Positions 27,489 to 45,136 of a DNA stretch of 64,000 bases are shown here, one piece after another. The stretch covers positions 558,001-622,000 of the forward strand of contig JAPZRU010000002.1 in the NCBI GenBank assembly GCA_027531255.1. The letters are read 5' to 3'. A program made the translations under genes and the position numbers. This DNA is from Steroidobacteraceae bacterium (GTDB lineage: Bacteria > Pseudomonadota > Gammaproteobacteria > Steroidobacterales > Steroidobacteraceae). Position 1 is the stretch's first letter. Every line of letters begins with the position of its first letter. The notes under the pieces were generated by a model. The model ran no database searches. It worked only from the letters and a program-made list of their open reading frames with translations, and was not told where the DNA came from.

Positions 27489-28256
27489 TCACGCGATGGT
27501 TCCGCCGCCGTCGATCACGAGCGTCTGGCCCGTGACGTAGCGCCCGGCGGGCGAGGCGAGGAAGACGGCGGCGCCGGCGATGTCGTCAGGCTCGCCGAAT
27601 CGGCGCAGCGGCGACGAGTTCTCCATCTGCGCACGCAGCACCGGGTCTTCCCAGAGCGCTCGAGCGAAGTCGGTACGCACGATGCCCGGCGCGATGGAGT
27701 TGGCGCGGATGCCGAGCGGACCGAGCTCCACGGCGAGGTTGCGCACGAGCTGCAGGTCGGCCGCCTTCGAGATGCCGTACGCGCCGATCGTGGTCTGGCC
27801 CTTCAGCCCGGCGATCGACGAGATCACGGTGATGGAGCCCTCGCCGAGCGCGCGCATGTCCGGCACCACGAGCTGCACGAGCCAGTGATTCGAGAGGATG
27901 TTGTTCTCGAGGATCTTGCGGAACGCGTCGTCGGGGATCGACGACATGGGCCCGTAGTGCGGGTTCGACGCGGCGTTGCACACGAGCGTGGACACGGGCC
28001 CGAACGCGTCGCGCGTGCGCTGGACGAGGCTGGCGAGATCGCTCCGGGAGGAGATGTTGGCGGGCACGGCCAGCGCGCGGCCGGCGCCGTGCCGCGCGTT
28101 GATTTCCCCGGCGACCTCGTGGCACGGCTCCGGCTTTCGCGAGGAGATCACCACGCGCGCGCCGTGCTCCGCGAGGCGCTCGGCGATCGCGCGGCCGATG
28201 CCGCGCGAGGAGCCCGTGACGATCGCGGTCCTGCCCTGCAGATCGAACAGAGACAT
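27489..28256 (-). CDS. SDR-family oxidoreductase (DHRS4-like)
   Basis: A 255-residue classical short-chain dehydrogenase. The cofactor loop is [15 protein letters not shown], with SSRKPE after strand 2 favouring NADP(H) through the serine/arginine pair. Further motifs are [10 protein letters not shown] (in place of NNAG), ISSIAG, YGISKAA and the end [10 protein letters not shown]. This pattern resembles DHRS4-type carbonyl reductases. It starts two bases after the stop of the ACAD11-like gene and may act on the 3-hydroxyacyl-CoA, analogous to SDR LvaD in the levulinate pathway; the exact role is inference. Confidence 0.9.
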
Positions 28257-28258
28257 GG

Positions 28259-29526: not shown

Positions 29527-30567
29527 CTAGCGGATGAGGTCGACGGCGGTCCCGGCGATCACGTCGACGCGGCGTCCGAAGTCGGGCGCGTCGGGGCTCG
29601 ACGCGTTGCCGTCCAGGCCCCGGCGGTAGACGCCCTGGCAGATCGACGCGAGCCGGAACAGGCTGACCGCGAGGTAGAACGGCCACCCGTCGATGGGTTG
29701 CAGCCTCCTGGCCTCGCGATAGGCGGCGACGTACTCGGCCTCCGTGGGAAGGCCGAGCGCCGCGCGGTCGACACCGCCCAGCCCGCGCAGGGTCCCCGGC
29801 GGCAGTCGCCACTGGGCGCACTGGTAGGCGAGGTCCGCGTACGGGTGACCCAGCGTGCTGAGTTCCCAGTCGAGCAGCGCGGCGGCTCGTCCCTCCGGTG
29901 TGAACACGAAGTTGTCGAGGCGGAAGTCGCCGTGGGTGATCGCGACCTGGCCGTCGTCGCTCGGCAGGTGCCCCGGCAACCAGTCGATCAGCAGCTCCAT
30001 CGCGGGCCGCACGTCGGTTTCGGCAGCGCGGTACTGCTCCGTCCAACGGCGCACCTGGCGCTCGTAGTAGCCGCCCGGGCGGCCGTAGTCCGCCAGGCCG
30101 ACGTCGGCGGGCACGACTTCGTGGAGCGCGGCGAGGACGCGATTCATCTCGGCGTAGATGCGCCTGCGCAGCGTCGGCTCGAGTCCGGGCAGACGGCCGT
30201 CCCAGTGGACGCTGCCGCAGACGTGCTCCATCACGTAGAAGGGGCTGCCGAGCACGGCTTCGTCGGCACAGTAGTGCAGCACCTTCGGCACCGGGACCGC
30301 CGTGGCGGCGAGGGCGCCGAGGACGCGGTACTCGCGGTCGATCGCGTGCGCCGACGGCAGCAGGCGGCCGGGCGGCTTCCGACGGAGCACGTAGGTCCCG
30401 GTAGCCGCGTCCAGTCGAAAGGTCGGATTGGACTGGCCGCCTGCGAACTTCCCGACGGACCGCAGGCCGCCGAATCCGGGCACGCGCTCTTCCAGGTAGC
30501 GCCCGAGCGTGTCGATCGCTACGCCGACGTCGGCGGCGCCCGTGCCACCGTCGCTCGATTCCTGCAT
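29527..30567 (-). CDS. APH-like phosphotransferase (ACAD10/LvaA-type acyl-CoA kinase)
   Basis: A 346-residue aminoglycoside-phosphotransferase-fold kinase. Visible motifs: FAGGQSNPTF (nucleotide loop), YVLRRKPPG (lysine), ITHGDFRLDNFVF (catalytic Asp/Asn) and LLDWELSTLGHPYADLAY (metal-binding Asp). This form with FRLDN and DWELSTLG is characteristic of the ACAD10/11 kinase domain and of LvaA, which phosphorylates the 4-hydroxyl of 4-hydroxyvaleryl-CoA. It is co-transcribed with an ACAD11-like gene that follows directly. An antibiotic-resistance role is very unlikely given the operon. Confidence 0.88.
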   Translation of the reverse strand: MQESSDGGTGAADVGVAIDTLGRYLEERVPGFGGLRSVGKFAGGQSNPTFRLDAATGTYVLRRKPPGRLLPSAHAIDREYRVLGALAATAVPVPKVLHYCADEAVLGSPFYVMEHVCGSVHWDGRLPGLEPTLRRRIYAEMNRVLAALHEVVPADVGLADYGRPGGYYERQVRRWTEQYRAAETDVRPAMELLIDWLPGHLPSDDGQVAITHGDFRLDNFVFTPEGRAAALLDWELSTLGHPYADLAYQCAQWRLPPGTLRGLGGVDRAALGLPTEAEYVAAYREARRLQPIDGWPFYLAVSLFRLASICQGVYRRGLDGNASSPDAPDFGRRVDVIAGTAVDLIR

Positions 30568-30574: not shown

Positions 30575-31999
30575 TCAGCTCGCGGGCGTGAACACGGCGT
30601 CGGCGAACGCCTGCGTCAGCTCGGCATAGGGCGGCCGGATCGCGGCGGCCAGCCCGTTGTCGTCGGCACAGTAGAAGACGGACTTGGAGTGCGAGTAGTT
30701 GAGGAAGCCCTCGGGCCCGGAGTGGCAGCCGATGCCGCTCTTGCCCACCCCACCGAAGGGCAGCGCGGGATCGGCCGCCTGGAAGCCGAACACGTTCACC
30801 CCGGTGCCGCCGCTCTGCACTTCCGCGGCGAATCGCCTGCCGAGTTCCTCGTCGCGCGTGACGAGGTACGAAGCCAGCGGGCTCGGACCGGAGTTGATGC
30901 GCGCGATCGCGTCCTCGATGGTCCGATAGGTCTTCACCGGCGTGACCGGGCCGAAGATCTCGTCCTGCATGCAGGCCAGGTCGTCGGGCGGGTCGACCAC
31001 CACGTACATGGGGATCTGGCGCGTGGCGGGATCCGGCTCGTCGCCGTTCAGGGAGATCACCTCGACGCCGCGCGCGCGAGCTTCCTCGACCAGCGACAGC
31101 ACGCGGCGGTAGTGATGTTCGTTGATCGCGCCCGTCGCGTCCGGGTGGCCGACGTACCGGGGATACAGCCTGGTCCATTCGGCAACCGCGAGGTCGATCC
31201 ACTCGCGCAGCCGACCTTCCGGCACGAGCGCGTAGTCGGGCGATGTGCAGACCTGGCCGCCCTTGAAGACGCGGAAGTAGAGGAAGCGCTCGACGAGCGC
31301 GGGCGCCAGGCCGTCGTCGGCGAACACGGTCGGATTCTTGCCGCCCAGTTCGAGCGTCACGGGCGTCAGGTTCGCGGCGGCAGCCTGCATCACGAGGCGA
31401 CCGACACGCGCGCCGCCGGTGTAGGTGAGGTGATCCCAGGGCAGCGAGGCGAACCGTGCACCGAGTTCGGCACCACCCGAGACGACCGCGAGTTCGTCCT
31501 CCGGGAAGTGAGCGGCCACGGCCTCCGCGAGCACTCGGGCCGTCGCGGGCGCGAGTTCGGAGGACTTCACGATCACGCGGTTCCCGGCCGCCAGCATGTC
31601 CGCCACCATCGCCAGCGCGCACTCGATCGGGAAGTTCCAGGGCGCGATGTTCCCGAGCACGCCCTTCGGCTGCCGGATCACCTCGGCGCGAGACGAGCCG
31701 TGGACGAGCGGGTTCAGCGGTCGGACGGCCGGCGCCATCCACTCGGCCAGCATCGACTGGACGTACCGGGAGCGGGCGATCACGGCGCCGCTCTCGAACA
31801 GATCGGTGACGAGCGGATGGTGGGTCGAGAAGTCCGCGGCGACCGCCTGCCGGATCGGCTCCCGGAACTCGATCATCGCGGCGTCCAGCCTGCGCAGGCG
31901 GTCGAGGCGCCGCGCCAACGGGGGGTTGCGGTCGGCGGCGAACGCCGCCTTCTGTCGCTCGAACAGGCGCCTGAGTTCCGCGAAGCTCGTGTCCGTCAT
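30575..31999 (-). CDS. Aldehyde dehydrogenase, coniferyl-aldehyde-type
   Basis: A 474-residue ALDH of the class 3/coniferyl aldehyde group. The NAD-binding segment is IAPWNFPIECAL with VKSSE; the general base is in TLELGGKNP and the catalytic cysteine in KGGQVCTSPDY. C-terminal motifs are DEIFGPVTPV and LPFGGVGKSGIG, and no peroxisomal or membrane tail is present. It should oxidise the aldehyde made by the upstream aminotransferase, or an alcohol-derived aldehyde, to the acid used by the CoA ligase. It follows the aminotransferase by 33 bases. Confidence 0.92.
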   Translation of the reverse strand: MTDTSFAELRRLFERQKAAFAADRNPPLARRLDRLRRLDAAMIEFREPIRQAVAADFSTHHPLVTDLFESGAVIARSRYVQSMLAEWMAPAVRPLNPLVHGSSRAEVIRQPKGVLGNIAPWNFPIECALAMVADMLAAGNRVIVKSSELAPATARVLAEAVAAHFPEDELAVVSGGAELGARFASLPWDHLTYTGGARVGRLVMQAAAANLTPVTLELGGKNPTVFADDGLAPALVERFLYFRVFKGGQVCTSPDYALVPEGRLREWIDLAVAEWTRLYPRYVGHPDATGAINEHHYRRVLSLVEEARARGVEVISLNGDEPDPATRQIPMYVVVDPPDDLACMQDEIFGPVTPVKTYRTIEDAIARINSGPSPLASYLVTRDEELGRRFAAEVQSGGTGVNVFGFQAADPALPFGGVGKSGIGCHSGPEGFLNYSHSKSVFYCADDNGLAAAIRPPYAELTQAFADAVFTPAS

Positions 32000-32032: not shown

Positions 32033-33412
32033 TCAGCGCCCGGCCGCAGCGACCAGGCCGGCGAAGTCGTATCGGCGCAGGACTCGATCCGCAGCCGCGA
32101 CCGCGCCGTCGATGTCTTCGTCGCTGTGTGCGAACGAGAGGTAGACGTGGTTGGAGGTCGGGAGCGACAGCAGCACGCCCTCGTTGATGAGGGCGAGGTA
32201 GAGCAGCATCAGCGGCCAGGCGGGTACGTCGCCGAACGATTCGAAGCCCGGCTCGCGGTTCGTCAGGAACAGCTGGAGCATCGGACCCAGTTGGTTGACG
32301 TGGTGCGGCACGCCGGCCGCGCGGAACGCGGCGCGCAGCCCGTCGGCGAGGCGCGCGCCCCGGGCGTGGAGGCGGCCGTACTCGCCCGACGCCTGCAGTT
32401 CTTCGTACCGCGCGACCGCCGCGGCGGCGGCCGCGAGTCCGGCCGTGCCGTCGTTCGCGGTGCCGGACTGGAACACGCCGGGTACGCCGCTGGGCCGGTC
32501 CGGGTCGAGCGGCCGCATCAGCGCTTCGGAGCCGACGACGGCAGCGACCTTCTCGCCGGCTCCGAGCGCCTTCGCGTAGGTGGCGAGATCGGGAGCGACC
32601 CCGTGGAACGCCGCGGCGCCGCCGGCGGCCAGGCGGAAGCCAGTGATCACCTCGTCGAAGATCAGCACGACCCGGCGTCGCCGGGTGAGCTCGCGAACCT
32701 CGCGCAGGAACTGCGTGGTGCTTCCCCAGAGGCCGCCGGAGTGCATCGCGGGATCGAGCAGCACGGCTGCGACGTCGTCGTGCGCGGCGAGCGCCGCGTC
32801 GAGCGCCGCGGGATCGCCGTAGCGGACCAGCGCGACGTGCGAGTACGCGCTCGGCGGTATGCCGCTGCCGAACGGGCGACCGCTCGGGTCGAGACCGACC
32901 AGGAACTGATCGTCCTGCCCGTGGTAGTGGCCGAGGAACTTCACGATCCGGGGCTTGCCCGTCGCGGCGCGAGCGAGGCGAACCGCCGTCATCACCGCCT
33001 CGGTGCCGCTGTTCAGGAAGCGGACGCGCTCCGCGTGCGGCAGTACGCGCTGCAGCGCTTCGGAGGCCTCGACCGCGAGGAGCGGGTTGACGACGAGCGA
33101 CCCCATGCCCGCGCGTGCGTGGACGGCGTCGACCACGGCGGCCGGCCGGTGACCCAGCAGCAGCGGGCCGTTGCAGAGGAAGCAGTCGAGATGGGCACGG
33201 CCGTCGAGGTCGACCATCCGGCTGCCCTGGCCACCGCCGAAGAACAGCGGATACGGGTGGAAGTGCCGCAGGTTGCCGGTGGTGCCGCCGGCGAGCGTGC
33301 GCGCCGCGCGCGCGTACGCCGCGGCGGACGCGGGGGTGAGCTCGCGATAGCGCCCGACGATCTCGGCGCGAGTTCGCTCGACCTGCTCGGCTGGCAAGGG
33401 CTGCACGGCCAC
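32033..33412 (-). CDS. Class III aminotransferase (GSA-aminomutase-like)
   Basis: A 459-residue PLP enzyme. Signatures are GNLRHFHPYPLFF, FLNSGTEAVMTAVRLARA, the PLP-anchoring VLIFDEVITGFRL and the Schiff-base lysine in LATYAKALGAGEKV. It resembles glutamate-1-semialdehyde aminomutase-like proteins found in secondary pathways, but context argues for transamination of an amine or amino-acid substrate to an aldehyde or ketone. It heads the nine-gene operon. The GTG at 33412 is chosen because GGAGGGG lies seven bases upstream; an ATG further upstream would overlap the promoter. Confidence 0.85.
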   Translation of the reverse strand: MAVQPLPAEQVERTRAEIVGRYRELTPASAAAYARAARTLAGGTTGNLRHFHPYPLFFGGGQGSRMVDLDGRAHLDCFLCNGPLLLGHRPAAVVDAVHARAGMGSLVVNPLLAVEASEALQRVLPHAERVRFLNSGTEAVMTAVRLARAATGKPRIVKFLGHYHGQDDQFLVGLDPSGRPFGSGIPPSAYSHVALVRYGDPAALDAALAAHDDVAAVLLDPAMHSGGLWGSTTQFLREVRELTRRRRVVLIFDEVITGFRLAAGGAAAFHGVAPDLATYAKALGAGEKVAAVVGSEALMRPLDPDRPSGVPGVFQSGTANDGTAGLAAAAAAVARYEELQASGEYGRLHARGARLADGLRAAFRAAGVPHHVNQLGPMLQLFLTNREPGFESFGDVPAWPLMLLYLALINEGVLLSLPTSNHVYLSFAHSDEDIDGAVAAADRVLRRYDFAGLVAAAGR

Positions 33413-33454
33413 GCTATCCCCTCCACAGGTCTCCGGCGTCCGAACGCGCGCCGT

Positions 33455-33483
33455 AGAATAAGCCATTGGCCTAAAGCAGTCCA
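33455..33483 (-). promoter_or_regulatory. Promoter/operator of the nine-gene catabolic operon
   Basis: On the minus strand TGGACT (33483-33478) and TATTCT (33460-33455) are 17 bp apart. The 15-bp box TAAGCCATTGGCCTA (33459-33473, plus-strand reading) fills the spacer end and shares its last TA with the -10. It differs by one base from the palindrome repeated at four other promoters in the island. Confidence 0.75.
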
Positions 33484-33545
33484 CGGCCTTTCTGTGACCA
33501 GACGCCTCCCTCCACTCGGCGTCTCGAGGGCACCGTTCCATTTTT

Positions 33546-33564
33546 TAGGCTGTTGGCCTATAGT
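33546..33564 (+). promoter_or_regulatory. Operator and -10 box upstream of the ADC-family gene
   Basis: TAGGCTGTTGGCCTA (33546-33560) is one base from the perfect palindrome, and its last TA begins the -10 TATAGT (33559-33564). A weak -35 (TTCCAT) lies 17 bp upstream. The start codon is at 33620. Confidence 0.75.
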
Positions 33565-33619
33565 GACTCGAACGGGGTCGCGGTCGACTCCGGCTCGCAA
33601 CTCGGGAGGGGAGAGTCGC

Positions 33620-34387
33620 ATGGCTACTCGGGGAAGGTTCACGCCGGCGCGGTGGGGCGGCTTCATGCCGGCGCACAACTCGATTTCGCAGCGCGGGCCC
33701 TGGCACTATCGCGACACGGAGTGCGTGCTGCTCGAGTTCGAGACCGACCGCGACGTGGCGCTCGACCTGCTGCCGTCCGACCTCGAACTGTACGAGCCGG
33801 CGACGGCATTCATGGTCATCGAGACGAATCACTGGACCACGCTGGGTCCCTACAGCGAGGTGTACAACGGCATTCTCTGCACCTGGAACGGGCAGCTCCA
33901 CGGCTACGTGCCGGGCGTCTACGTCACCGGGGAGAACTCGCAGATCGTCGGTCGCGAAGTGTGGGGCTTCGGGAAGAAGCGCGCGGACCGCATCGAGGTG
34001 ATCCGTCGCGACAACGGCGTCGTGGAAGCCGTGATGGACGTGCAGCCCGGGGACCGGGCGATCCGCGCGACCGTGCGACCGGCGACGAACGAGCCGGCTT
34101 CGGCCGTGGGCTCGCTCCCGCTGATCTGCCTCCGCATCGTGCCGTGCGCCGAGGGCGGGTCGAAGCCCGCGCTCGCCCAGCTCGTCAGCGTCCTGTTCAC
34201 GGCGAAGCCGCTCGTCGGCTCGGACGGCATCGCCGAGGTGTACAGCGGCCCCGGGCACCTGCAGTTCGGCGCGCCTTCCGATGCGCAGCTGCCGGTCGTG
34301 AAGATGAACTCCGCCAAGTACGCACGCTTCAACGCGGTGCTTCCGTACGGCAAGGTGCTGAAGACCTATTCCGCCGACGAACTCTAG
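33620..34387 (+). CDS. Acetoacetate decarboxylase-family protein
   Basis: A 255-residue member of the ADC fold. The Schiff-base lysine region reads GREVWGFGKKRADRIEV (K119/K120), close to the usual GREVWGFPKK; proline is replaced by glycine. Other family segments are YNGILCTWNGQLHGYVPGVYV and PLICLRIVPC. Many ADC-like proteins outside solventogens are aldolase-dehydratases or decarboxylases of beta-keto acids. It is transcribed alone, divergent from the aminotransferase operon, and carries its own copy of the island operator. A GGGAGGGGAGAG stretch precedes the start. Confidence 0.82.
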   Translation: MATRGRFTPARWGGFMPAHNSISQRGPWHYRDTECVLLEFETDRDVALDLLPSDLELYEPATAFMVIETNHWTTLGPYSEVYNGILCTWNGQLHGYVPGVYVTGENSQIVGREVWGFGKKRADRIEVIRRDNGVVEAVMDVQPGDRAIRATVRPATNEPASAVGSLPLICLRIVPCAEGGSKPALAQLVSVLFTAKPLVGSDGIAEVYSGPGHLQFGAPSDAQLPVVKMNSAKYARFNAVLPYGKVLKTYSADEL

Positions 34388-34395
34388 CCGACTCG

Positions 34396-34426
34396 GCGCG
34401 CGCCGCCGCGACGAGGCGGCGCGCGC
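34396..34426. terminator. Bidirectional terminator between ADC-family and VOC genes
   Basis: A perfect hairpin with 12-bp GC-only arms (GCGCGCGCCGCC) and a 7-nt loop lies between two convergent stops. Confidence 0.75.
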
Positions 34427-34437
34427 AGGGGCGACCG

Positions 34438-35433
34438 TCAGCGGCCCCGCCGGTCCCGTCGGTGCAGCAAGCTGGTTTCCGGCGGGCCCCGCTCGCAGAG
34501 TTCGACTACCAGCCCCGCACTGAAGTCGGTCGGGAAGTAGGCGATGCGGTCTCCGTACGGGTGCAGCACGTGCGCCTTCAGTTGCGGGTCCACGGGGTTG
34601 CCGCTCGTGTCCACCATCTGCACCCCTCGCGCACGCATCCGGTCGTAGAACCCGTCGAGGTCGTCGACGTCCACGATCAACTCCGCGACGTAGCCGTCGC
34701 CTTTGCGATCGAGGTAATCCATCAGCGGTCCGGGGCCGACGGGCTGGACCAGCGCGAGCCAGACGCCTCGGGCGTCGATGAACGCCACGCGCATCCCGCC
34801 GGACCGCTCGTTGCCGCCGCTCTCGAGGACGAGCGTCTCGGGGTACCGCTCCAGGCCCAGCACGTCCGTGTAGAACGCCGCGGCCCGGTCCGCGTCTCTC
34901 ACGATGATCGCCAGCCTGTCGACCCGCGCCGACGCGCCTGCGGCCGGCTCGGCCCGGCCCTGCTCGTCGCCGGACACCGCGAGACGCACGTGCGTACCGC
35001 CCGAGGCCTCGCGCGGCAGCGAGACCGCCCCGTCCGGATCCCGCTCGACACGCACCTGCGGCAGACGCGCGAGCGCCCGCTCGATCTCCTCGGGGCTCCG
35101 CGCATGGAAGACCAGCGTCGAATAGGTACCCGCGCGGCAATGCGGTCGGTCCGACGTCTCGTGCCGAGGCGCCTCGCGGAGTTCGAGACGGAAGTCGCCC
35201 GCGCGGACCACGGCGTCGCCGCGGCCCGATCCCGTGGGCTGCGAGCCCCAGCCGAACGTCGTGGCGAAGAAGTCCGTGGCGTGCGCCACGTCGGCGACGC
35301 ACGCGGCCACGTAGCCGAAGCGCACCGGCGGTTCGGCGGCGCCCGCGACGGGCGGGAAACTCGCGAGCAGCGCGAGCGCCGCCATCGCGCCGCGCACCGC
35401 GCCGCCCACGAACGCCCCGCTGCGCCCGCCCAC
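34438..35433 (-). CDS. Secreted VOC-superfamily protein with two domains
   Basis: A 331-residue protein starting with a signal peptide (AVRGAMAALALLASFPPVAGAA). Two vicinal-oxygen-chelate units follow: RFGYVAACVADVAHATDFFATTFGW and VDRLAIIVRDADRAAAFYTDVLGLERY in shortened form, with a conserved metal-type glutamate region near YVAELIVDVDDLDGFYDRMRA. These are glyoxalase/extradiol-dioxygenase-like folds; the substrate is not evident. The GTG at 35433 lies four bases after the TonB receptor stop, so the two form an operon, and periplasmic location fits with receptor-coupled uptake. Confidence 0.78.
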   Translation of the reverse strand: MGGRSGAFVGGAVRGAMAALALLASFPPVAGAAEPPVRFGYVAACVADVAHATDFFATTFGWGSQPTGSGRGDAVVRAGDFRLELREAPRHETSDRPHCRAGTYSTLVFHARSPEEIERALARLPQVRVERDPDGAVSLPREASGGTHVRLAVSGDEQGRAEPAAGASARVDRLAIIVRDADRAAAFYTDVLGLERYPETLVLESGGNERSGGMRVAFIDARGVWLALVQPVGPGPLMDYLDRKGDGYVAELIVDVDDLDGFYDRMRARGVQMVDTSGNPVDPQLKAHVLHPYGDRIAYFPTDFSAGLVVELCERGPPETSLLHRRDRRGR

Positions 35434-35437
35434 GCGC

Positions 35438-37576
35438 CTACCAGCGATAGCCGAAGCTGGCACCGAACCAGCGCCCCACGCCCGGGATGTCCTCCAGCGC
35501 GCCGAAGTCGAGGCTGGTGTCGAAGGAGTAGAAGCGATACTCCTCGTCGGCGAGGTTGCGGACGAACAGCGCGGCGCTCCAGCGATCGTCGGCGGAGGAG
35601 AACCCGATGCGCGCGTTCAGTACTGCGTAGGCCGGCTCTTCGAGGACCGGCGTCGGCACGAGGTTGAAGTTCTGCTTGTCGCGCCAGCTGCCGTCGAGCT
35701 GGGCGGAGAGTTCGCCGCCGAACGCGCTCCAGCCGTAGCGCACGAGACCGTTCACGGTCCACTTCGGCGCGAACGGCGCGCGCTCGGTGCCGTCGGACAC
35801 CGCGAGCGGGACGTCCCGCACTTCGTTCGACAGGTACGACATGCCGAGACTCACGTCCAGCCCGGCGACGGGCGAGGCCTGGAACTCGATCTCGCCGCCG
35901 GTCATCTCGGCGTTGACGTTCACTACACGGGTGGCGAGCCCGTCGAAGGAGAACGCCTGGTAGTCGTCGTAGTCGTAGCGGAAGACCGACACGTTGAGGG
36001 TCGCGGCGGCGCCGAGCGAGGTCTTCACGCCACCCTCGTACGCGGTCAGCACCTCGCCGTCGAACCGCAGCAGTTCCGGCTCCTGGGGGAACAGCGGGAA
36101 ATTCAGGCCGCCGGACTTGATGCCGCGATTCACGCCCACGTACCAGAGCCGGCCGTCGACCGGGCGGTAGTTGAACTGCACGCGCGCCGACACCCCGTCG
36201 TCGGAGAAGTCCCTCTCGAAGCTCACCGGGCCGGGCGCGACGAATTCGAACAGGTTGGTGGAGCGGTATGCGAAGTCCTTGCTGTCGCTGCTGTAGCGTG
36301 CACCGAGCTCGACGCTGGCACGGTCGGAGAACGCGATCTCCGCCTGGCCGAACACCGCGTAGGAGGTGGTCACCTGGTCCGCGCTCGCGATCTCGCGACC
36401 GGTTCCGAAGTAGACTTCGCCGAACTGCTCCGTGCCGTAGACGCCGTCGATGCGCAGGAAGTACACGCCGACGAGGCCCGTCAGCCGCTCCGTCTGCCAC
36501 GACGCGCGTAGTTCCTGCGAGAACTGGTCGACGTCGGCGGTGCGGACGTAGTGGTAGACGCTGAACGGCGTCACGTCCGCGTCCTCGGCGTAGTCGTTCT
36601 TCAGGTTCTGGTAGTTGCTCACCGACGTCAGCGTCACCCTGCCCAGCGACCAGTCGAGCGTCGCGGTCACGTCCGCGAACTCGTTGCGGTTCCAGCCTGG
36701 GAAGTCGAGCGAAGCGGTGAAGGGATCGCCGTCCGCGTCGCGATAGCCCCAGAAGTCGGTCGCGGTCGGACTCGTGACGTACTCGCCGTCCTGGGCAAGC
36801 ACGTGTGCGTAGCCGCCGCGATTGCTGTCCTCCTCGACGTACTGGAGCTTGAGCCAGCCATCCAGCGACTCGCCCTGGAACAGCGCCTGCGCCCGGATCG
36901 CCCAGTCGTCGGACTTCATCGCGTTGCGGCCGCGGTCGTTCTCGATCAGGCCGTCGTCCCGGTTCAGCGCACCGGAGAACCGGAATGCGACGGAATCCGA
37001 CAGCGGCCCGCCGGCCGCGCCTTCGAGCCGGACCCGGCCGTCCTCGCCCAGTTCCACGCCGACCTTGCCCTCCGCCGACTGCGAGGGTCGGGCGGTGACG
37101 TAGCGCACGACGCCGCCCGTCGCGTTGCGGCCGAAGAGCGTGCCCTGCGGACCGCGCAGCACCTCGACGCGCTCCACGTCGAACAGGCTCAGGTCTATGC
37201 CGGAGTTCAGCGCGAGGTAGCTCTCGTCCAGATAGACGGCGATGGGCGACTCGAGGTTGGCCGCGAACGCGTTCTGCGTGACGCCGCGGATGTTGAACGC
37301 GTTCACGGTGCCGCCGCCCGCGCCGGAAACCTGCACGCCGGGAACCTGGGCGACGATGTCGATGCCGCTGGTGATGCCGAGTTCTTGCAGGCGCTCGCCG
37401 CCGAGAGCGGCGATCGACATCGCCACGTCCTGCAGCTTCTGCTCGCGCTTCTGGGCCGAGACGACGATCTCGCCGAGTTCCTCGGCCGCCCACGCCGTCG
37501 CGTGGGGAACCAGCGATGCCGCCGCCACCCACAGACAGCTCGCGACCGGTGCGCCACCTACCCGTCTGGTACCCAT
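35438..37576 (-). CDS. TonB-dependent outer-membrane receptor
   Basis: A 712-residue receptor. After a signal peptide ending AWAAEE, the TonB box is LGEIVVSAQKREQKLQDV, the plug shows FNIRGVTQNAF, YLDESYLALNSG and VEVLRGPQGTLFGRNATGGVV, and the barrel ends in a terminal aromatic (FGASFGYRW). IVVSAQKRE-type receptors are abundant in bacteria that degrade steroids, terpenes or aromatics. It is co-transcribed with the VOC protein, and its promoter carries the island operator, so it likely imports the pathway substrate. The ATG at 37576 follows a GGGGGC stretch. Confidence 0.94.
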   Translation of the reverse strand: MGTRRVGGAPVASCLWVAAASLVPHATAWAAEELGEIVVSAQKREQKLQDVAMSIAALGGERLQELGITSGIDIVAQVPGVQVSGAGGGTVNAFNIRGVTQNAFAANLESPIAVYLDESYLALNSGIDLSLFDVERVEVLRGPQGTLFGRNATGGVVRYVTARPSQSAEGKVGVELGEDGRVRLEGAAGGPLSDSVAFRFSGALNRDDGLIENDRGRNAMKSDDWAIRAQALFQGESLDGWLKLQYVEEDSNRGGYAHVLAQDGEYVTSPTATDFWGYRDADGDPFTASLDFPGWNRNEFADVTATLDWSLGRVTLTSVSNYQNLKNDYAEDADVTPFSVYHYVRTADVDQFSQELRASWQTERLTGLVGVYFLRIDGVYGTEQFGEVYFGTGREIASADQVTTSYAVFGQAEIAFSDRASVELGARYSSDSKDFAYRSTNLFEFVAPGPVSFERDFSDDGVSARVQFNYRPVDGRLWYVGVNRGIKSGGLNFPLFPQEPELLRFDGEVLTAYEGGVKTSLGAAATLNVSVFRYDYDDYQAFSFDGLATRVVNVNAEMTGGEIEFQASPVAGLDVSLGMSYLSNEVRDVPLAVSDGTERAPFAPKWTVNGLVRYGWSAFGGELSAQLDGSWRDKQNFNLVPTPVLEEPAYAVLNARIGFSSADDRWSAALFVRNLADEEYRFYSFDTSLDFGALEDIPGVGRWFGASFGYRW

Positions 37577-37639
37577 CTCAGCCCCCGCGATCCGACGCCG
37601 TAGATCGCTCCGCGGCTGGCGCCCCGGAGTCCTCGAGTG

Positions 37640-37668
37640 AGATTAGGCCGCGGGACTATATTTGGCAA
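37640..37668 (-). promoter_or_regulatory. Promoter/operator of the TonB receptor-VOC operon
   Basis: On the minus strand TTGCCA (37668-37663) and TAATCT (37645-37640) are 17 bp apart. The box TAGGCCGCGGGACTA (37644-37658), one mismatch from the perfect palindrome, fills the spacer and overlaps the -10. The rest of the 320-bp gap, 37669-37896, shows no gene. Confidence 0.78.
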
Positions 37669-37896
37669 GAAGGCGACGGGCGGTAGATCTCGATCGCGGC
37701 GCACGGCCGCATCGGATGGTCTCGGCGTTTTGGTCCGCTGGCCCAATCTGGCCGGGGTTCGGGAGGATCGCGCCCGGACTGACCTCGCAGAGAGGCCGGC
37801 GGGGGAGGCAGGAAGGTCGCCTGGGCCGCGAGGCGCCGGCCGGCGCCGGGCCGACCGTGTCGCCCTGGGTCGCGGTCGTCGGCCGACCGGTGCGGG

Positions 37897-38478
37897 TCAG
37901 TCGGCGTCCACGAGCGCGAAGATCACGGCCTTCATCTCGGTCTGGAGTGCCTTCATGTCGGCGCTCTCGGGGTCTTCGTGGATGAACTGGACGGCGAGGC
38001 CGTCGAGCATCGCGCGGACGATCTTGGCGACGTGCCGCCGCCGCTGGGGCGACAGCTTCGGCGCGATCTGCTTCAGCTCCTTGGCGAGGACGGCCTCGTA
38101 GAGGTCGTTCTCCTTCTTGAGGATCGCCGACACTTCCTCGTTGTGGTCGGCCATCGAGATGATCATCCGCCACAGTGCGGTCTCGGGCGTGCGCAGCACC
38201 GCCAGTCCCGAGTCGATGATCGCGGCGAGGCGCCCGCGCCTGGTCGAGGTGGCGGCTATCGATTCCTGCATGCTGTTCGTGTACTTCTCGACTTCCTGGT
38301 CGAAGATCGCCACGAGCAGGTCGTGGCGCGTGCGGAAGTAGTACTGGAGATTGCCGTGCGTGATGCCGATCTTCTCGGCGATGTCGCGGAGTACGAACGC
38401 CTCCGGACCGCTCTCCATCAGGATCTTCTTCGCGGCCTCCAGGATCTGCTGGCGCCGCGCGTCTCCCTTCCGTCCCAT
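37897..38478 (-). CDS. TetR-family transcriptional regulator
   Basis: A 193-residue TetR protein. The N-terminal DNA-binding domain is GDARRQQILEAAKKILMESG, then FVLRDIAEKIGITHGNLQYYFRTR; the ligand domain is all-helical with no recognisable signature beyond WRMIISMADHNEEVSAIL. It is the only TetR gene in the catabolic island, so it is the leading candidate for the protein that binds the TAGGCC-N3-GGCCTA sites at five promoters. It lies downstream of the cupin gene on the same strand; if co-transcribed from the promoter at 39202, it would regulate itself. The ligand is probably a CoA thioester or the free substrate. Confidence 0.9.
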   Translation of the reverse strand: MGRKGDARRQQILEAAKKILMESGPEAFVLRDIAEKIGITHGNLQYYFRTRHDLLVAIFDQEVEKYTNSMQESIAATSTRRGRLAAIIDSGLAVLRTPETALWRMIISMADHNEEVSAILKKENDLYEAVLAKELKQIAPKLSPQRRRHVAKIVRAMLDGLAVQFIHEDPESADMKALQTEMKAVIFALVDAD

Positions 38479-38628
38479 CGAGTCCTCTGGACTGCCTGCG
38501 GCCTTCGCCGCTGCGGCGCCATGATCCCCGATATCCGCCGCGGCGTCACGCGGTCGGCGCGGGTCGCACCCGTTCGCGGGGCGGCCGCCGGCGCGATCGC
38601 GCGAGCCGCGTCCGGCCGGGCGATTCCG

Positions 38629-39066
38629 CTATCGCCATTTCACGGGACGATCGCCGACGAGGCACGTGAGATCGGAGAAGTCCGGGCTGAACTTCAGGTC
38701 GACGGTCATGCCCTCGCGGAGGTAGGCCACGTCGCCGGTGCGCAGCGTGAACGTCTCCCCGCCGTGCACGTGCATCTCGACGCTGCCCGAGGTGACCACG
38801 AGGAACTCGTCGAAGGGATACGTGAAGCTCGCGGTGCCCGACTCCCGGAACGCGGCTGCGACGCGACACCCGTCCGGGGAGCGGTAGATGACGGCCTCGT
38901 GGCCGCCGAACTGCGCGAGCGGCTCCCACCGGAAGTTGTCCGGGCGCCCTCGGGGAACCGTGAGATCGGCAGGCGAGCGGCGGCGCGGCCGGGTGCACCG
39001 AGCGGGCGCCGTGCCCACAGCCACGTGGCCGCCGAGGAGAGAATTGCGATCCCGACCGTCCACCAC
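38629..39066 (-). CDS. Cupin-domain protein
   Basis: The C-terminal 110 residues form a cupin: EPLAQFGGHEAVIYR, FTYPFDEFLVVTSGSVEMHV, GETFTLRTGDVAYLREGMTVDL and LTCLVGDRPVKW. Metal-type histidines are sparse, as in the Cupin_3 group that binds ligands rather than catalyses. The start is uncertain: the open frame reaches 39198, but that would begin inside the promoter. GTG at 39066 or a later GTG is more likely. In another frame a GTG at 39077 encodes NWWWTVGIAILSSAATWLW, a membrane-anchor-like stretch, so a frameshifted N-terminus is possible. TetR follows after 150 bases. Confidence 0.65.
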   Translation of the reverse strand: MVDGRDRNSLLGGHVAVGTAPARCTRPRRRSPADLTVPRGRPDNFRWEPLAQFGGHEAVIYRSPDGCRVAAAFRESGTASFTYPFDEFLVVTSGSVEMHVHGGETFTLRTGDVAYLREGMTVDLKFSPDFSDLTCLVGDRPVKWR

Positions 39067-39190
39067 CAGTTCTGCACGTGTCGTCCACCTCGTCGAATGG
39101 GCGGGATGCGCGGCACCCGCGGGCGATGCCGCGCGCAGGGGCGATGCGGCGCGCAGGGTCGCTGCCGGGCGCGCCGCCGACCGGCGGCAC

Positions 39191-39227
39191 TGGACCAACA
39201 GTAGGCCATTGGCCTACATTGGGTCAA
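39191..39227. promoter_or_regulatory. Divergent promoters around a perfect TAGGCC palindrome
   Basis: The operator TAGGCCATTGGCCTA (39202-39216) is perfect outside its 3-bp centre. Rightward: TGGACC (39191-39196), 18 bp, TACATT (39215-39220). Leftward: TTGACC (39227-39222), 18 bp, TACTGT (39203-39198). One repressor dimer would block both the MDR gene and the cupin-tetR direction. Confidence 0.78.
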
Positions 39228-39271
39228 CGATCGACGCGCGCGGGACGTCTTGCCGCTCGCGAGGAGTATGC

Positions 39272-40297
39272 ATGCGCACCCGGCGAGTACACCTGAAGCA
39301 GCGCCCGCGCGGCCTGGCCCGGCCCGGGGATTTCGAGGTCGTCGAAGTCGAGTTGCCGCCGCTCCAGGCCGGCCAGGTGCTCGTGCAGAACCTGTGGATG
39401 TCGATCGATCCGTACATGCGACGCAGCATGGAAGCGGAAGCGACGGACCTGGAGCCTTGGCCGCTCGGCGCCGCACTCGACGGCCCGAGCGTCGGCCGGG
39501 TGCTGGAGTCGCGCCACCCCGCGTTTCGAGCGGGAGACGTGGTCGAGAGCATGTCCGGCTGGCAGGAGCACTTCGTCTCCGACGGCCAACCGTTCGTGCC
39601 CTACCTGTCGCCTTCCCACTCGCTGGCGGTGCGCGCGTCCGCCGGAGCGGAGCCCAGGGACTACGTCGGGCTGCTGGGCATTGCTGCGCTCACCGCGTAC
39701 GGAGGCATGGCTTGCCTGGCGCGCGTCTCCGCGGGCGACACCGTCGTGGTATCGAGCGCGGCCGGCACGGTCGGCTCCATCGCCTGCCAGATCGCGAAGC
39801 TCCGCGGCGCCAGAGTCGTCGGGTCCGCCGGCTCGCCCGACAAGGTGCGATGGCTGCGCAGCGTGGTCGGGATCGATCACGCGTTCGACTATCGCGAGGT
39901 CGTACTGCGCGACGAGCTTCGGGCCGCATGCCCGGGCGGGATCGACGTCGTGCTCGAGAACGCGACGCCGGAGCACCTGTCCGCGTGCCTGCCGCGGATG
40001 AAGGAGCTCGGGCAGGTGCTGATCGCCGGGTTCGTCGGCACGTACAGCGACCGCGGCTCGATGCGCATCGAGAACTTCGAGTACGTGCTTGATCGCTTCC
40101 TGACGATTCGCAGCTACCGGATCATGGATTTCCTGGACCGGTACGACGAGTTCGTCCGCGACATGCTGGCGTGGCGCGCCGAGGGCCGGATGACGCTGCA
40201 GGAGACGATCTACGAGGGACTGGAGCAGGCCCCTGCCGCGCTCTGCGCCCTGTTCACCGGAGGGCGGATCGGCAAGACGCTCGTGCGACTCGCCTAG
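39272..40297 (+). CDS. NADP-dependent MDR oxidoreductase (zinc-independent)
   Basis: A 341-residue medium-chain reductase of the leukotriene B4 dehydrogenase/CurA group. The N-terminus RRVHLKQRPRGLARPGDFEV, then LWMSIDPYMRRSM, is diagnostic. The Rossmann motif is SSAAGTVGSIACQIAKL; a GSAGS/K pattern after strand 2 fits NADPH. Zinc-binding residues are absent. These enzymes reduce the C=C bond of alpha,beta-unsaturated ketones or aldehydes. GAGGAG lies five bases before the ATG at 39272; an upstream ATG at 39268 is in another frame. It is a single-gene unit under the shared operator. Confidence 0.92.
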   Translation: MRTRRVHLKQRPRGLARPGDFEVVEVELPPLQAGQVLVQNLWMSIDPYMRRSMEAEATDLEPWPLGAALDGPSVGRVLESRHPAFRAGDVVESMSGWQEHFVSDGQPFVPYLSPSHSLAVRASAGAEPRDYVGLLGIAALTAYGGMACLARVSAGDTVVVSSAAGTVGSIACQIAKLRGARVVGSAGSPDKVRWLRSVVGIDHAFDYREVVLRDELRAACPGGIDVVLENATPEHLSACLPRMKELGQVLIAGFVGTYSDRGSMRIENFEYVLDRFLTIRSYRIMDFLDRYDEFVRDMLAWRAEGRMTLQETIYEGLEQAPAALCALFTGGRIGKTLVRLA

Positions 40298-40330
40298 GCT
40301 TGCTCGCGGTGGCCGGTCGCGCAGCGGGGC

Positions 40331-41098
40331 TCAGTAGCACCGCGCGGTGAGCCCGGCGTCGATGATGACGTCGGTGCCCGTGATGCAGCGGGCGTGGTCG
40401 GACGCCAGGAACACCGCCAGACGCCCGATGTCCTCGGGCTCGATGAGGCGCCCCAGCGGGTAGCGCGCTTCCATCGCGCTGCGTGCGGCCACCGGGTCGG
40501 GATCGCGGGCGAGGTAGTCCTCGAGCATGCGCGTGGTCACGTCCCCCGGGCAGATCGTGACGCAGCGGATGCCCTCCGGTCCGTGCCGGGTCGCGAGCGA
40601 GCGGCAGAGCGCGGTCAGGCCGCCCTTCGTGGCGCTGTAGACGGGAACGGTCGGCTCGCCGACGAACGCCGCGACCGAAGCCGTCAGCAGGATCACTCCG
40701 CCTCGCTGCCGCTGCATCACGGGCAGCACCGCGCGGCAGCCGTGGATCGCGCCCTCGAGATTGACCGCGAGCGCGTCGCCGATCTGCCGTGCGGACGTCT
40801 CCAGGAGGTCCGCGAACGAGACGATCGCCGCGTTGGCGTGGAAGACGTCGACGCGACCGTAGCGCTCCACGGCCTGCGCGACCAGCCGCACGTTGTCGTC
40901 GGGGTCCGCGACGTTCGCGGTCACGCCAAGCGCCTCGATGCCGCGCGCGCGCAGCTGGCTGCAGGCAGCGTCGAGGCCGTCGGTCGTCACGTCGGCCAGG
41001 ACGACGCGCGCACCGGCCTCGCCCATCGCGCTCGCGACGGCGAGGCCGATTCCGCGCGCGGCTCCCGTGACGATCGCCACCCGGTTTCCCAGAATCAT
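40331..41098 (-). CDS. SDR-family NAD-dependent oxidoreductase
   Basis: A 255-residue short-chain dehydrogenase: TGAARGIGLAVASAM, the acidic LADVTTD favouring NAD, HANAAIVSF in place of NNAG, LTASVAAF (catalytic serine), YSATKGGL and a C-terminal DVIIDAGLTARCY. It probably oxidises a hydroxy intermediate. The start codon ATG at 41098 lies only eight bases from the end of its -10 box (TAGACT, 41111-41106), so the transcript is predicted to be leaderless or nearly so, and no ribosome-binding site is possible. It shares the operator with the divergent FadB-like gene. Confidence 0.9.
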   Translation of the reverse strand: MILGNRVAIVTGAARGIGLAVASAMGEAGARVVLADVTTDGLDAACSQLRARGIEALGVTANVADPDDNVRLVAQAVERYGRVDVFHANAAIVSFADLLETSARQIGDALAVNLEGAIHGCRAVLPVMQRQRGGVILLTASVAAFVGEPTVPVYSATKGGLTALCRSLATRHGPEGIRCVTICPGDVTTRMLEDYLARDPDPVAARSAMEARYPLGRLIEPEDIGRLAVFLASDHARCITGTDVIIDAGLTARCY

Positions 41099-41100
41099 GC

Positions 41101-41134
41101 TTGTCAGTCTAGGCCGTCGGCCTATAATGGTCAA
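41101..41134. promoter_or_regulatory. Overlapping divergent promoters on a perfect TAGGCC palindrome
   Basis: The operator TAGGCCGTCGGCCTA is at 41110-41124. Rightward: TTGTCA (41101-41106), 16 bp, TATAAT (41123-41128), near consensus. Leftward: TTGACC (41134-41129), 17 bp, TAGACT (41111-41106). The two promoters interlock over 34 bp with the operator in both spacers. Confidence 0.85.
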
Positions 41135-41168
41135 CGGCCCCGCGCGGCCGACCGCCAGGACCGACCCG

Positions 41169-43262
41169 ATGCCACCGATCGATCGCTCGACGAGCGCCGA
41201 CGTCGCCGTGCTTCGCATGGCTCGCCCACCCGTCAACGGCCTGGATCGCGCGCTGCGCTCCGAGCTGCTCGGTGCCCTTCACGCCGCGCAGCAGGACGCC
41301 AGCGTGCGCGGCATCGTCCTGACCGGCGGCGACCGCGTGTTCTCCGCGGGCGCGGACATCAGCGAGTTCGCGGGCGGCGCGTCCGGCGCCGCGTTCGCGG
41401 AACCCTGGCTCGGTGCCGTGTGCACCGCGCTCGCGAGCTCGCCGAAGCCCGTCGTCGCGGCGATCGAAGGCGCTTGCCTGGGTGGTGGCCTCGAACTGGC
41501 GCTCGCGTGCCACGGCCGCATCGCCGGTCGCACCGCCAGGCTCGCGTTGCCGGAGATCAAGCTGGGCCTGCTGCCCGGGGCGGGCGGCACCCAGCGTCTG
41601 CCGCGTCTGATCGGAGTCGAGGCGGCGGTGTCGATGATCCTGTCCGGCGACGCGATCGATTCCGTCCGGGCGGACGCCCTCGGGCTCGCGACCGCGGTCG
41701 CCGGCAGCGTCCTCGAGCACGCGACCGCGCTCGCCAGGCGACTCGCGGCTCACTCCGGATCGAGAGCGGACGACGGCGCCGTCGCGACGGCGCGGACGCG
41801 AGAGCTCGGCGCAGCGGCGCTCGGCGACGCCGCGGCGCGGCTCCGCCGACCGTCGAGGGCGCAGGCCGCGATCATCGAGGCCGTGCGGGCGTCCTTCGAG
41901 CGGCCGCTTGAGGATGGGCTCGCCTGCGAGCGCAGGCTGTTCGAGGAGTTGCTCGGCACTGCCGAGGCGCGTGCGCTCCAGTACGCGTTCTTCGGCGATC
42001 GGGCAGCCGGGCGTGTCGATGCTCTGCCTCGCGACGTGGCGGTACGTCGGGTCAGCGAGGTCGCCGTCGTCGGCGCCGGGACCATGGGAGCCGGAATCGC
42101 GATGTGCGTCGCGAATGCCGGCCTCGCCGCGGTGCTGATCGACTCTGCACCCGAGGCACTCGACCGCGGCCTCCAGCGGATCGAGCAGACCTACCGGACT
42201 GCCGTGCAGAAGGGAAAGCTGTCCAGCGGGGAGGCCGAGGCACGGCGCGCGGCCATTCGCGCGTCGGGGTCGCTCGAGGCGGTGTGCACGGCCGACCTCG
42301 TCGTCGAGGCCGTACCGGAAGCGCTGGACCTGAAGCGCAGCGTGTTCGCGGAGGTCGACCGGCACGCGAAGCCCGGCGCGATCCTCGCGTCCAACACGTC
42401 GACGCTCGACGTCGGCGCGATCGGCGCGGCGACGAGCCGTCCGGGGGACGTGGTGGGCCTGCATTTCTTCAGCCCGGCGCACGTGATGCGGCTGCTGGAG
42501 GTGGTGCGGACGGAGCGGAGCTCGGACGCGGCGGTGGCGACCGCCATGGCCTTCGCGCGAGCGATCGGCAAGGTGGGTGTGCTCGCGAGGGTCTGCGACG
42601 GCTTCATCGGCAACCGCATGTTCGAGGAGTACTGCCGACAGGCATTCTTCCTGCTGGACGAGGGCGCCCTGCCCGCGCAGGTGGACCACGCCCTGGAAAG
42701 CTGGGGCATGGCCATGGGGCCGTTCGCGGTGCTCGATCTCGCCGGCGGCGACATCGCGTGGGCGATCCGCCAGCGCCGCGCGCGCGAGCAGCCGGACCAG
42801 CCCTACTCCCGGCTGCCGGATCTCCTGTGCGAGCTCGGTCGCTTCGGGCAGAAGACCGGGGCCGGGTTCTATCGCTACGACGGCGGGACGCGCGGTCGGG
42901 CCGTCGATCCCGAGGTCGACGCGCTCGTGGTGGAGCACTCCCGGCGCATCGGCGTGGAGCGACGAACCATCTCGGACGACGAGATCGTCTCGCGATGCGT
43001 GCTGGCGCTGGTCAACGAAGGCGCGCGGCTGCTGGACGAGCGCATCGCGCAGCGCGCGTCGGACATCGACGTGGTCTATCGCAACGGTTACGGATTCCCC
43101 GCGACTCGAGGTGGTCCGATGTACGCGGCGGACGAGATGGGTCTCGCGAACGTCGTGGCGAAGATCGCCCGGTACTCGCAAGGATACCGAGGCGCGTCGT
43201 GGCGCCTCTCGACTCTGCTGGAATCGGCTGCGCGACTCGGTCAGCGCCTTTCGGCGCTCTGA
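41169..43262 (+). CDS. FadB-like fused enoyl-CoA hydratase/3-hydroxyacyl-CoA dehydrogenase
   Basis: A 697-residue bifunctional beta-oxidation enzyme. The N-terminal crotonase domain has [30 protein letters not shown] (oxyanion hole) and [23 protein letters not shown] in recognisable pieces. The dehydrogenase domain begins with [15 protein letters not shown] (about residue 300) and has [21 protein letters not shown] and DGFIGNRM. The C-terminal domain holds [18 protein letters not shown]. It hydrates enoyl-CoA and oxidises the (S)-3-hydroxyacyl-CoA for the thiolase of the island. An ATG at 41127 overlaps the -10, so 41169 with AGGA nine bases upstream is chosen. Confidence 0.95.
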
Positions 43263-43864: not shown

Positions 43865-45136
43865 TTACGCGAGTGCGAACGCACCCGCCATGGCGCGCTG
43901 ACCGCTCGGCGACAGGCCGACGCGCGTCGCGAGCTCGGGCCACCGGCGCACCGTCTGGCGGATGGAGTCGACGATCGAGCGTGCCTCGGCCGCTTCAATC
44001 CGGAAGAGCGGCGCGACGTCGAGTGCAAGCGCCAAGTCTTTCACGTTGTCGCGCTCGGTCACGTTGAGCGTCAGGTGGTCGCCGTAGGGGGTGGGGTTCA
44101 CATCGAACGCCGGGGCCAGCCGCCAGCCAGCGCGTGGCTCGAACAGGAACCCGTGGTTGCGCAGGTGATCATCCGTGTTGGAGACGCACATGTTGAACAC
44201 GATCCGTCGCCACAGCTGCACAAGATCCGCTTCCGTGCGGGCACCGTGCCGGATGAGCACCTCGGCGATCTCGAGATAGCTCGCGCCAGTCGCCGCGTCG
44301 GCGCCGTCAGTGCGCCCGGTCATCGTCAGCGCGGAGGCGAAGTGGATGCGGCGCCCGGCGGGCGTGCGATCGAAGCGGCGCACGAGGAAGGTGTGGTACC
44401 CCGCACCGAAACGCTCGATGCGCGCCGGCGGCACGTCGATGCCGCAGGCCTGCGCGAGCGTTGCCACGACGATCTCCCACGCCGCGACGTCGTACGTGTC
44501 GCGCACGCTCGGGAACTTCGCGATCCAGAGCGCCCCGGCGGGGTCGACGACGCTCGCCTTCGGGCGCGCGCCGCCAAGCGAGGCCCCCGGCGCGATCAGG
44601 AGCCGCAGCCAGTCGTCGATCCGTGCGTCGTCACCGTCCGCCTCGATCGCGCGGCTCGCGGCCTCGAGTTCGCGCAGCCGCACGAACGGCGGCGTCGCCT
44701 CACGCGCCGCAGCGTCGACGAACGGGCCCTCGTCGTTCGGCCGAAAGCGCAGGGCCCCGAGGCGGTGCGCGTCGTGAACGCCGAGCAGGTAGTCGGACTC
44801 GAGCAACCGGACCGTGCGCGCCACCGTGCCCGCGCGCTGCTGGCGCTCAAGCCGCCGGTCCATCAGCAGACGGCCCCAACGATCGGGGGACGAGTCGAGG
44901 AACAGGCCGAAGTTCGGCATCCCGACCGCGGGGTATTGCCGCCCCGCGTAGGGGCCGAGGTGCGGATCGAGCGGCCACTCGCGGACCTGCGGATGCGCGA
45001 GCACGGCGTCCTCGAACGCGAACTGGAAGATCTCGCGCGCGCCGCCCGCGTGGGCCTCAAGCACCCCGAGCTTCAGCGGCGCATCCAGGCCGTCCCAGTC
45101 GGCGTAGACCGCGATCGACTTCCCCGGGGTCGCCAC
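43865..45136 (-). CDS. hipA: HipA-family toxin kinase
   Basis: A 423-residue HipA Ser/Thr kinase-type toxin. The N-terminal subdomain contains LLESDYLLGVHDAHRLGALRF and the activation/P-loop GASLGGARPKASVVD. The catalytic core has FLVRRFDR, the catalytic NMCVSNTDDHLRNHGFL and the metal-binding APAFDVNPTP. HipA proteins phosphorylate aminoacyl-tRNA synthetases and slow growth; the target here is unknown. It starts with GTG three bases after the hipB stop, the usual order antitoxin then toxin, and appears full length. Confidence 0.92.
   Translation of the reverse strand: MATPGKSIAVYADWDGLDAPLKLGVLEAHAGGAREIFQFAFEDAVLAHPQVREWPLDPHLGPYAGRQYPAVGMPNFGLFLDSSPDRWGRLLMDRRLERQQRAGTVARTVRLLESDYLLGVHDAHRLGALRFRPNDEGPFVDAAAREATPPFVRLRELEAASRAIEADGDDARIDDWLRLLIAPGASLGGARPKASVVDPAGALWIAKFPSVRDTYDVAAWEIVVATLAQACGIDVPPARIERFGAGYHTFLVRRFDRTPAGRRIHFASALTMTGRTDGADAATGASYLEIAEVLIRHGARTEADLVQLWRRIVFNMCVSNTDDHLRNHGFLFEPRAGWRLAPAFDVNPTPYGDHLTLNVTERDNVKDLALALDVAPLFRIEAAEARSIVDSIRQTVRRWPELATRVGLSPSGQRAMAGAFALA

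Follow-up and report, generated by a model that had tools for sequence, protein, structure and literature searches.

A palindrome in the promoter spacers of a catabolic gene island as the likely operator of its TetR-family repressor

The window analyzed here is a stretch of 64,000 nucleotides from a Steroidobacteraceae bacterium (GenBank assembly GCA_027531255.1, contig JAPZRU010000002.1, positions 558,001 to 622,000 of the forward strand; 69.9% G+C), whose genome comprises 4,203,516 bases in 40 contigs. It contains an island of 17 genes, one fewer than the approximately 18 of the initial annotation: a nine-gene operon, plus single genes for an acetoacetate-decarboxylase-family (ADC) protein, a TonB-dependent receptor, a VOC protein, a cupin, a TetR-family regulator, an MDR reductase, an SDR oxidoreductase and a FadB-like protein. 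Five copies of a palindrome, TAGGCC-RNY-GGCCTA, lie among these genes. Very probably, they constitute the operator of the TetR protein encoded at 37897–38478 (minus strand), which would repress seven island promoters as part of an autoregulated regulon for uptake and catabolism. TetR-controlled catabolic regulons are an ordinary and familiar kind of system. We found no description of this operator-TetR link, of the clade to which the protein belongs or of the gene cluster in the titles, abstract openings and listings of the open-licence literature.

Matches to TAGGCC-N3-GGCCTA with two or fewer mismatches number five in the window, with perfect copies at 39202 and 41110 and one-mismatch copies at 33459, 33546 and 37644, exactly as first annotated. 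In 100 dinucleotide shuffles of the window, the palindrome occurred 1.14 times on average and at most four times, and none of the shuffles reached five. By our gene models, all five sites are intergenic, in a region (32033–43262) where intergenic sequence makes up only 9.6% of the total, and they lie 11–177 bases from the starts of putative target genes. Predicted site 1 (33459–33473, minus strand) belongs to the nine-gene operon and lies within its promoter, 46 bases 5′ of the first gene. Site 2 (33546–33560, plus) shares the same divergent intergenic region and lies 59 bases upstream of the ADC-family gene, followed by the −10 box TATAGT. Site 3 (37644–37658, minus) is 67 bases upstream of the TonB receptor and VOC genes, in the putative promoter TTGCCA-17-TAATCT. 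Each of the two perfect sites is common to a pair of divergent promoters: site 4 (39202–39216) to those of MDR (plus) and cupin-tetR (minus), and site 5 (41110–41124) to those of the FadB-like gene (plus, TTGTCA-16-TATAAT) and the SDR gene (minus, TTGACC-17-TAGACT).

The gene models thus bear out the annotated seven transcription directions from five sites: the nine-gene operon (minus), ADC (plus), TonB-VOC (minus), cupin-tetR (minus), MDR (plus), SDR (minus) and FadB (plus). In all seven, a −10-like hexamer begins at the last TA of the operator (TATTCT, TATAGT, TAATCT, TACATT, TACTGT, TATAAT, TAGACT), as the initial annotation has it for the outer TA. A plain sigma-70 consensus scan of 33000–41500 recovered only the two promoters at 41110, which points to weak −35 boxes at the other five. 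To describe the geometry more broadly, we aligned 40 sites in 64 orientations: the five of the window, two from contig C2 of the same genome and 33 of the 38 found at up to two mismatches in related loci (both described below). We omitted the remaining five (L024 3161, 6201 and 6975; L031 7547; L032 2280), which coincide with coding frames or gene hits. Rows of this alignment cannot be treated as independent, and a divergent site enters once per direction. Upstream of the palindrome, a TTGNNA element is conserved at −10 to −5 (T 55%, T 66%, G 50% and final A 48%); at the other end, TANNNT occupies positions 13–18, with its sixth base, T at position 18, present in 77% of the promoters. By these columns, the spacer is 17 bases long and is taken up by the operator, from which the −10 box also receives its first two bases. 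Across the 40 sites, R-N-Y is preferred at the three central positions of the palindrome.

Genes were called with Pfam and NCBIfam, and some starts are approximate. The nine-gene operon, on the minus strand, opens with a class-III aminotransferase (AT3; 32033–33412, start approximate; Aminotran_3, 145.8 bits), followed by an aldehyde dehydrogenase (ALDH; 30575–31999; Aldedh, 263.2 bits), an APH-family kinase-like protein (29527–30567; APH, 177.5 bits), an acyl-CoA dehydrogenase (28259–29518; Acyl-CoA_dh domains on a longer frame), an SDR oxidoreductase (27489–28259; Pfam on a longer frame, and NCBIfam) and a thiolase (26279–27463; Thiolase_N, 215 bits). Gene 7 encodes an acyl-CoA ligase (24624–26222, start approximate; AMP-binding, 226.6 bits; NF004837, 574.3 bits, above the cut-off of 476), gene 8 an acyl-CoA dehydrogenase with a C-terminal extension (22774–24600; Acyl-CoA_dh_C, 80.7 bits, longer frame) and gene 9 an EthD-domain protein (21877–22737; EthD, 82.3 bits in two stretches). 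The PDB sequences nearest to AT3 are glutamate-1-semialdehyde aminomutases. Aminopentol aminotransferase, an enzyme linked to fumonisin, was a weaker match, and we did not adopt that identity.

Beyond the operon lie genes for the ADC-family protein (33620–34387, plus; PF06314, 98.3 bits), a VOC protein of the glyoxalase/dioxygenase superfamily (34438–35463, minus; Glyoxalase, 71.2 bits), the TonB-dependent outer-membrane receptor (35438–37576, minus; plug and beta-barrel domains) and the cupin (38629–39024, minus, start approximate; Cupin_3, 41.1 bits). The MDR gene (39272–40297, plus; ADH_N_2 on a longer frame) encodes a CurA/prostaglandin-reductase-like NADPH-dependent double-bond reductase, as suggested by PDB double-bond reductases; its score against the CurA model NF058644 is 266.9 bits, under the cut-off of 440. 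The SDR gene (40331–41098, minus; adh_short_C2, 201.2 bits on a longer frame, and NCBIfam) is followed by that for the FadB/FadJ-like enoyl-CoA hydratase/3-hydroxyacyl-CoA dehydrogenase (41169–43262, plus; 3HCDH_N and ECH_1 on a longer frame), which scores 439.5 bits against the FadJ model, under its cut-off of 869. The initial annotation treated cupin and tetR as one unit. Both do run in the same direction behind the site at 39202, but they are separated by ∼150 bases, room for a further promoter before tetR, and for this reason we regard their co-transcription as probable only. A HipA-family kinase gene (43865–45136) adjoins the FadB end of the island.

The predicted repressor, of 193 residues, matches TetR_N (36.4 bits; Pfam cut-off 24) and, also above cut-off, the BetI-type C-terminal domain TetR_C_6 (36.4 bits). 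Its AlphaFold model (pLDDT 90.8) has nine helices and the all-helical TetR fold, with residues 41–47 as recognition helix, and its best PDB matches in Foldseek are TetR-family regulators. As is typical of the family, a palindromic operator appears, on sequence grounds, to overlap its own promoter and those of its neighbors. The protein nevertheless falls below the cut-off of every one of the 18 NCBIfam models listed. The best of these is BetI, the choline-binding repressor with which it shares TetR_C_6 (TIGR03384, 65.6 bits versus 201.3); despite the CurA-like MDR gene, the CurR repressor model NF058643 gives just 24.0 bits of 300. Bacillus FadR, KstR and FasR, TetR regulators of fatty-acid or sterol metabolism, are among its nearest solved folds (query TM-scores 0.58–0.74 for folds of this type, at 15–20% identity), yet it scores 45.2 of 200, 40.3 of 280 and 41.6 of 330 bits against their respective models, and 28.2 of 300 against PsrA. 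The FadP, LiuQ and PsrA regulons of Proteobacteria, which govern degradation of fatty acids or branched-chain amino acids, are likewise TetR regulons derived by a comparative method (PMC5343134). A documented parallel in organization is MbdR of Azoarcus sp. CIB, the repressor of 3-methylbenzoate catabolism, for which 3-methylbenzoyl-CoA is the inducer; it is described as a TetR protein of a catabolic cluster that acts at several promoters, including its own, through palindromes over the −10 and/or −35 boxes (PMC4424350). MbdR (PDB chain 4uds) aligns weakly, at 35.1 bits, to residues 6–187 of the window protein; its operator, given in the same text as ATAC-N10-GTAT, differs from TAGGCC-N3-GGCCTA (PMC4424350), so that the window operator is not of the MbdR type, and its pathway is another one. 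PheR was set aside, being treated as an IclR-family regulator in its source (PMC13273656).

We scanned the whole genome for the palindrome. At one mismatch or fewer there are eight sites: the five of the window, a doublet on contig C2 (C2:20827 and C2:20857) and C9:15662. Five of the eight fall within 7.7 kb, a clustering with a probability of about 3e-9 by a simple scan estimate. When the promoter boxes were added to the operator to give a composite motif, searched at up to two mismatches, eight hits were obtained at seven sites, compared to one hit for the reversed control, and all seven sites lie in two tetR-bearing islands, namely the five of the window and the C2 doublet. C9:15662, which has one mismatch, is inside a predicted open reading frame (ORF) and absent from the composite hits, and we excluded it from the regulon. 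These data argue against random scatter of the motif over the genome. They also contradict the view that the window holds an apparently complete regulon, since C2 provides a second locus that has a TetR paralog as well as a doublet of the operator.

The C2 paralog (C2:13744–14310) is 42% identical to the window TetR and retains THGNLQ of the recognition helix. The doublet (C2:20827–20871; 30 bases centre to centre) is ∼6.5 kb from this tetR. On one side it adjoins a TonB receptor gene, with a small ORF and a dimethylformamidase-like gene behind it; on the other come a methyltransferase gene, a small ORF and a class-III aminotransferase gene and then, further along, an MFS gene, an acyl-CoA dehydrogenase gene (55–56% identical to operon gene 4 of the window) and a gene for an FAD-binding protein. 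An ECF sigma/FecR pair is encoded nearby. The same operator would thus be in use at an island with a paralogous TetR. Whether the two regulons overlap, with both paralogs binding one operator and the islands cross-regulating, perhaps in response to different inducers, is a matter on which we lean slightly to the negative, although such overlap would be compatible with control of the window island by its own TetR. In its favor are the operator common to both islands, the relatedness of the paralogs with the THGNLQ helix intact, and the aminotransferase, acyl-CoA dehydrogenase and TonB receptors of C2. However, no palindrome with three or fewer mismatches lies beside the C2 tetR, where there is only a lone TAGGCC half-site between an SDR gene and tetR (L016:12590), and a single paralog might account for the C2 sites.

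TetRs of this kind are rare: a match at E 1e-25 occurs in 3 of 217 genomes of the family, namely the source genome and two others, in which the copy is 72% identical. A profile search of genome contigs, based on an alignment of four TetRs, yielded 25 loci, 15 of them close (L022–L036; TetR 45–72% identical) and 10 distant (24–31%). Record titles of the close loci name Gamma- and Alphaproteobacteria, a proteobacterium, Sphingomonadaceae and Hyphomonadaceae, along with two odd ones. Two titles of metagenome-assembled contigs, 'Klebsiella pneumoniae' (L024) and 'Flavobacteriales' (L034), look mislabelled or misbinned. At one mismatch or fewer, 19 palindromes were found in 13 of the 15 close loci, whereas 539 control patterns with permuted half-sites and gaps of 2–4 gave a mean of 0.94 sites and never exceeded 9 sites or 6 loci. 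When the true half-site was kept and the gap set to any other length between 0 and 8, zero or one site resulted. For the window island itself, the palindrome count of five compares to a mean of 0.23, and a maximum of 4, for control patterns. None of the 10 distant loci carries the palindrome at this stringency.

Sites in the relatives precede homologs of window genes (tetR, ADC, AT3-ALDH, VOC and TonB), and also lie by an MFS transporter gene, which the window island lacks. Since several contigs are short, homolog counts among the 15 close loci are lower bounds: at least 12 for ADC, 11 for the TonB receptor, eight each for AT3, VOC and cupin, six for ALDH, five for MDR and three for EthD, with CoA ligases in at least eight that are merely 28–36% identical. 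In some loci, luciferase-like or Rieske oxygenases appear instead, along with MFS transporters. The composite motif gave 35 hits (both orientations) in the genomes of the 15 relatives, spread over 14 of these genomes; 27 of the hits share a contig with tetR. Of those elsewhere, one (G621:C52) is ∼330 bases 5′ of a VOC-VOC frame, with identities of 36% and 53% between its two parts and the VOC protein of the window, and has on its other side an MDR gene, the product of which is 37% identical to its window counterpart. This locus is likely an unlinked regulon member found by motif alone, and offers a handle on the catabolic pathway.

Could the palindromes be chance products of G+C-rich sequence, or dispersed repeats? 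The 69.9% G+C of the window and the 101 sites that the genome shows once two mismatches are allowed (299 for the reversed control) are compatible with such an origin. The clustering of the sites, their location between genes, their constant spacing within promoters and their conservation with no gap but that of 3 bases are not, and the same form is kept in the less G+C-rich relatives L027, L031, L034 and L035 (G+C 0.44–0.49). On the strength of the locus controls, the promoter geometry and the composite search, we reject this explanation, to which we give next to no credence. The initial proposal of one shared operator read by this TetR is instead supported by conservation across the 15 loci, the fixed geometry and the clustering in the genome.

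Several observations weigh against that proposal. At one mismatch or fewer, the reversed control occurs 18 times in the genome versus eight for the palindrome, and it gives 46 composite hits versus 35 in the genomes of the relatives; it is thus position and clustering, rather than number, that constitute the evidence. With two mismatches allowed, all 15 close loci have sites (38 in total), but for controls the mean is then 12.9 sites in 7.3 loci, with maxima of 53 sites and 15 loci, and 2 of the 10 distant loci also have sites. L026 and L029 carry two-mismatch sites only. The close loci are not independent, as L022/L023 and L025/L026/L028/L029 are near kin, and the nine-gene operon is largely not common to the relatives. 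Finally, THGNLQ is invariant across 21 aligned TetRs, but because this helix formed part of the pattern used to search for relatives, its conservation is partly a product of selection.

A further difficulty comes from other families of the class. A composite hit at one mismatch or fewer occurs in 10 of 369 genomes of the class, including the source genome and the relative G015. We sought the TetR family in five of the eight others and examined the neighboring gene families in two. Just one of the five has a TetR match, on a contig other than that of the site, and we rejected these extra hits as regulon members in favor of other users or chance. In the two genomes with examined neighbors, the composite site is perfect and immediately precedes a type II toxin-antitoxin operon (L063 at ∼1511, L064 at ∼1505), with identical TAGGCCATTGGCCTA and cores identical to the site at 39202. 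The operons match BrnT and RelE toxin models and have helix-turn-helix (HTH) antitoxins, with the MqsA cut-off exceeded in L063 only, and the TetR family model has no match at E 1e-10 in either genome. We read them as making independent use of this palindrome. Possession of the 15-mer is therefore not enough to identify the window TetR, a warning against assigning regulons by motif only.

These operons raise the question of whether the window operator is read mainly by some other regulator, an HTH antitoxin or the C2 paralog, while the local TetR acts elsewhere. The HipA-family gene beside the island and the existence of a THGNLQ-bearing paralog in the same genome could be taken in the same sense. 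But an unrelated reader need not put the motif next to tetR, and the 15 close loci, which were retrieved via their TetR, have sites beside tetR even on short contigs (L029, 6.7 kb; L030, 4.1 kb; L033, 4.8 kb). Moreover, the palindrome at one mismatch or fewer is missing from the distant TetR loci, and the genomes G015 and G051, which have sites at their tetR loci, each yield a single TetR match at E 1e-25, so that a close paralog need not be invoked there. Although no systematic search for further regulators was made in the 15 loci, we judge this alternative very improbable, and favor the local TetR as the reader of the window sites.

Computation shows where the sites lie, how they overlap the promoters, that they are conserved along with this TetR and that they cluster. 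How such a system would operate, in its binding, repression, autoregulation, inducer and substrate, we infer as follows. TetR proteins bind their sites as dimers, act by steric block and are released by ligand. Here, a TetR dimer would bind across the ∼17-base spacer and the first −10 bases at the seven promoters and block RNA polymerase, with one perfect site serving each of the two divergent pairs. The tetR gene is probably self-repressing via the cupin-tetR promoter, as it lies behind an operator site. An inducer, probably the substrate or its CoA thioester, would fill the C-terminal pocket, whereupon the repressor would leave and the whole set be turned on. The substrate, which is perhaps lipid-like and maybe amino-bearing, would be taken up via the TonB receptor, deaminated by the aminotransferase, oxidized by the aldehyde dehydrogenase and passed to the CoA ligase. 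Beta-oxidation could then proceed by way of the two acyl-CoA dehydrogenases, the hydratase/dehydrogenase and the thiolase, with further steps contributed by the ADC, VOC, cupin, EthD and SDR proteins and the double-bond reductase. Repressor, likely operator, promoter geometry and target list can all be read from sequence alone.

A broader generalization, about which we are evenly divided, is that catabolic islands of patchy occurrence among Gamma- and Alphaproteobacteria are under the control of an unnamed TetR clade, of which the THGNLQ helix and the operator TTGNNA-N4-TAGGCC-RNY-GGCCTANNNT are the marks, that these islands act on an uncharacterised and perhaps amine-bearing, lipid-like natural product, and that two paralogs share one operator code in this genome. 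Record names of the relatives suggest lakes, groundwater and perhaps sponges as habitats. More distant TetRs may retain part of the code. In nine mutually close Burkholderiaceae loci (L037–L045, from Cupriavidus, Ralstonia, Burkholderia and kin; L046 was left out), the TetR is 28–31% identical, with the same recognition helix in the four that were aligned, and the 15-mer is absent at one mismatch or fewer. In all nine, GGCCTATAAT occurs 113–125 bases before the matched stretch, with TAGGCCTATAAT there in seven, which fits a conserved GGCCTA half-site over a −10 box.

At the other edge of the window island, 3′ of the nine-gene operon, an ORF at 20681–21841 fuses a weak, below-cut-off match to the rve_3 integrase core with an EamA-like match, and is possibly an insertion sequence remnant.

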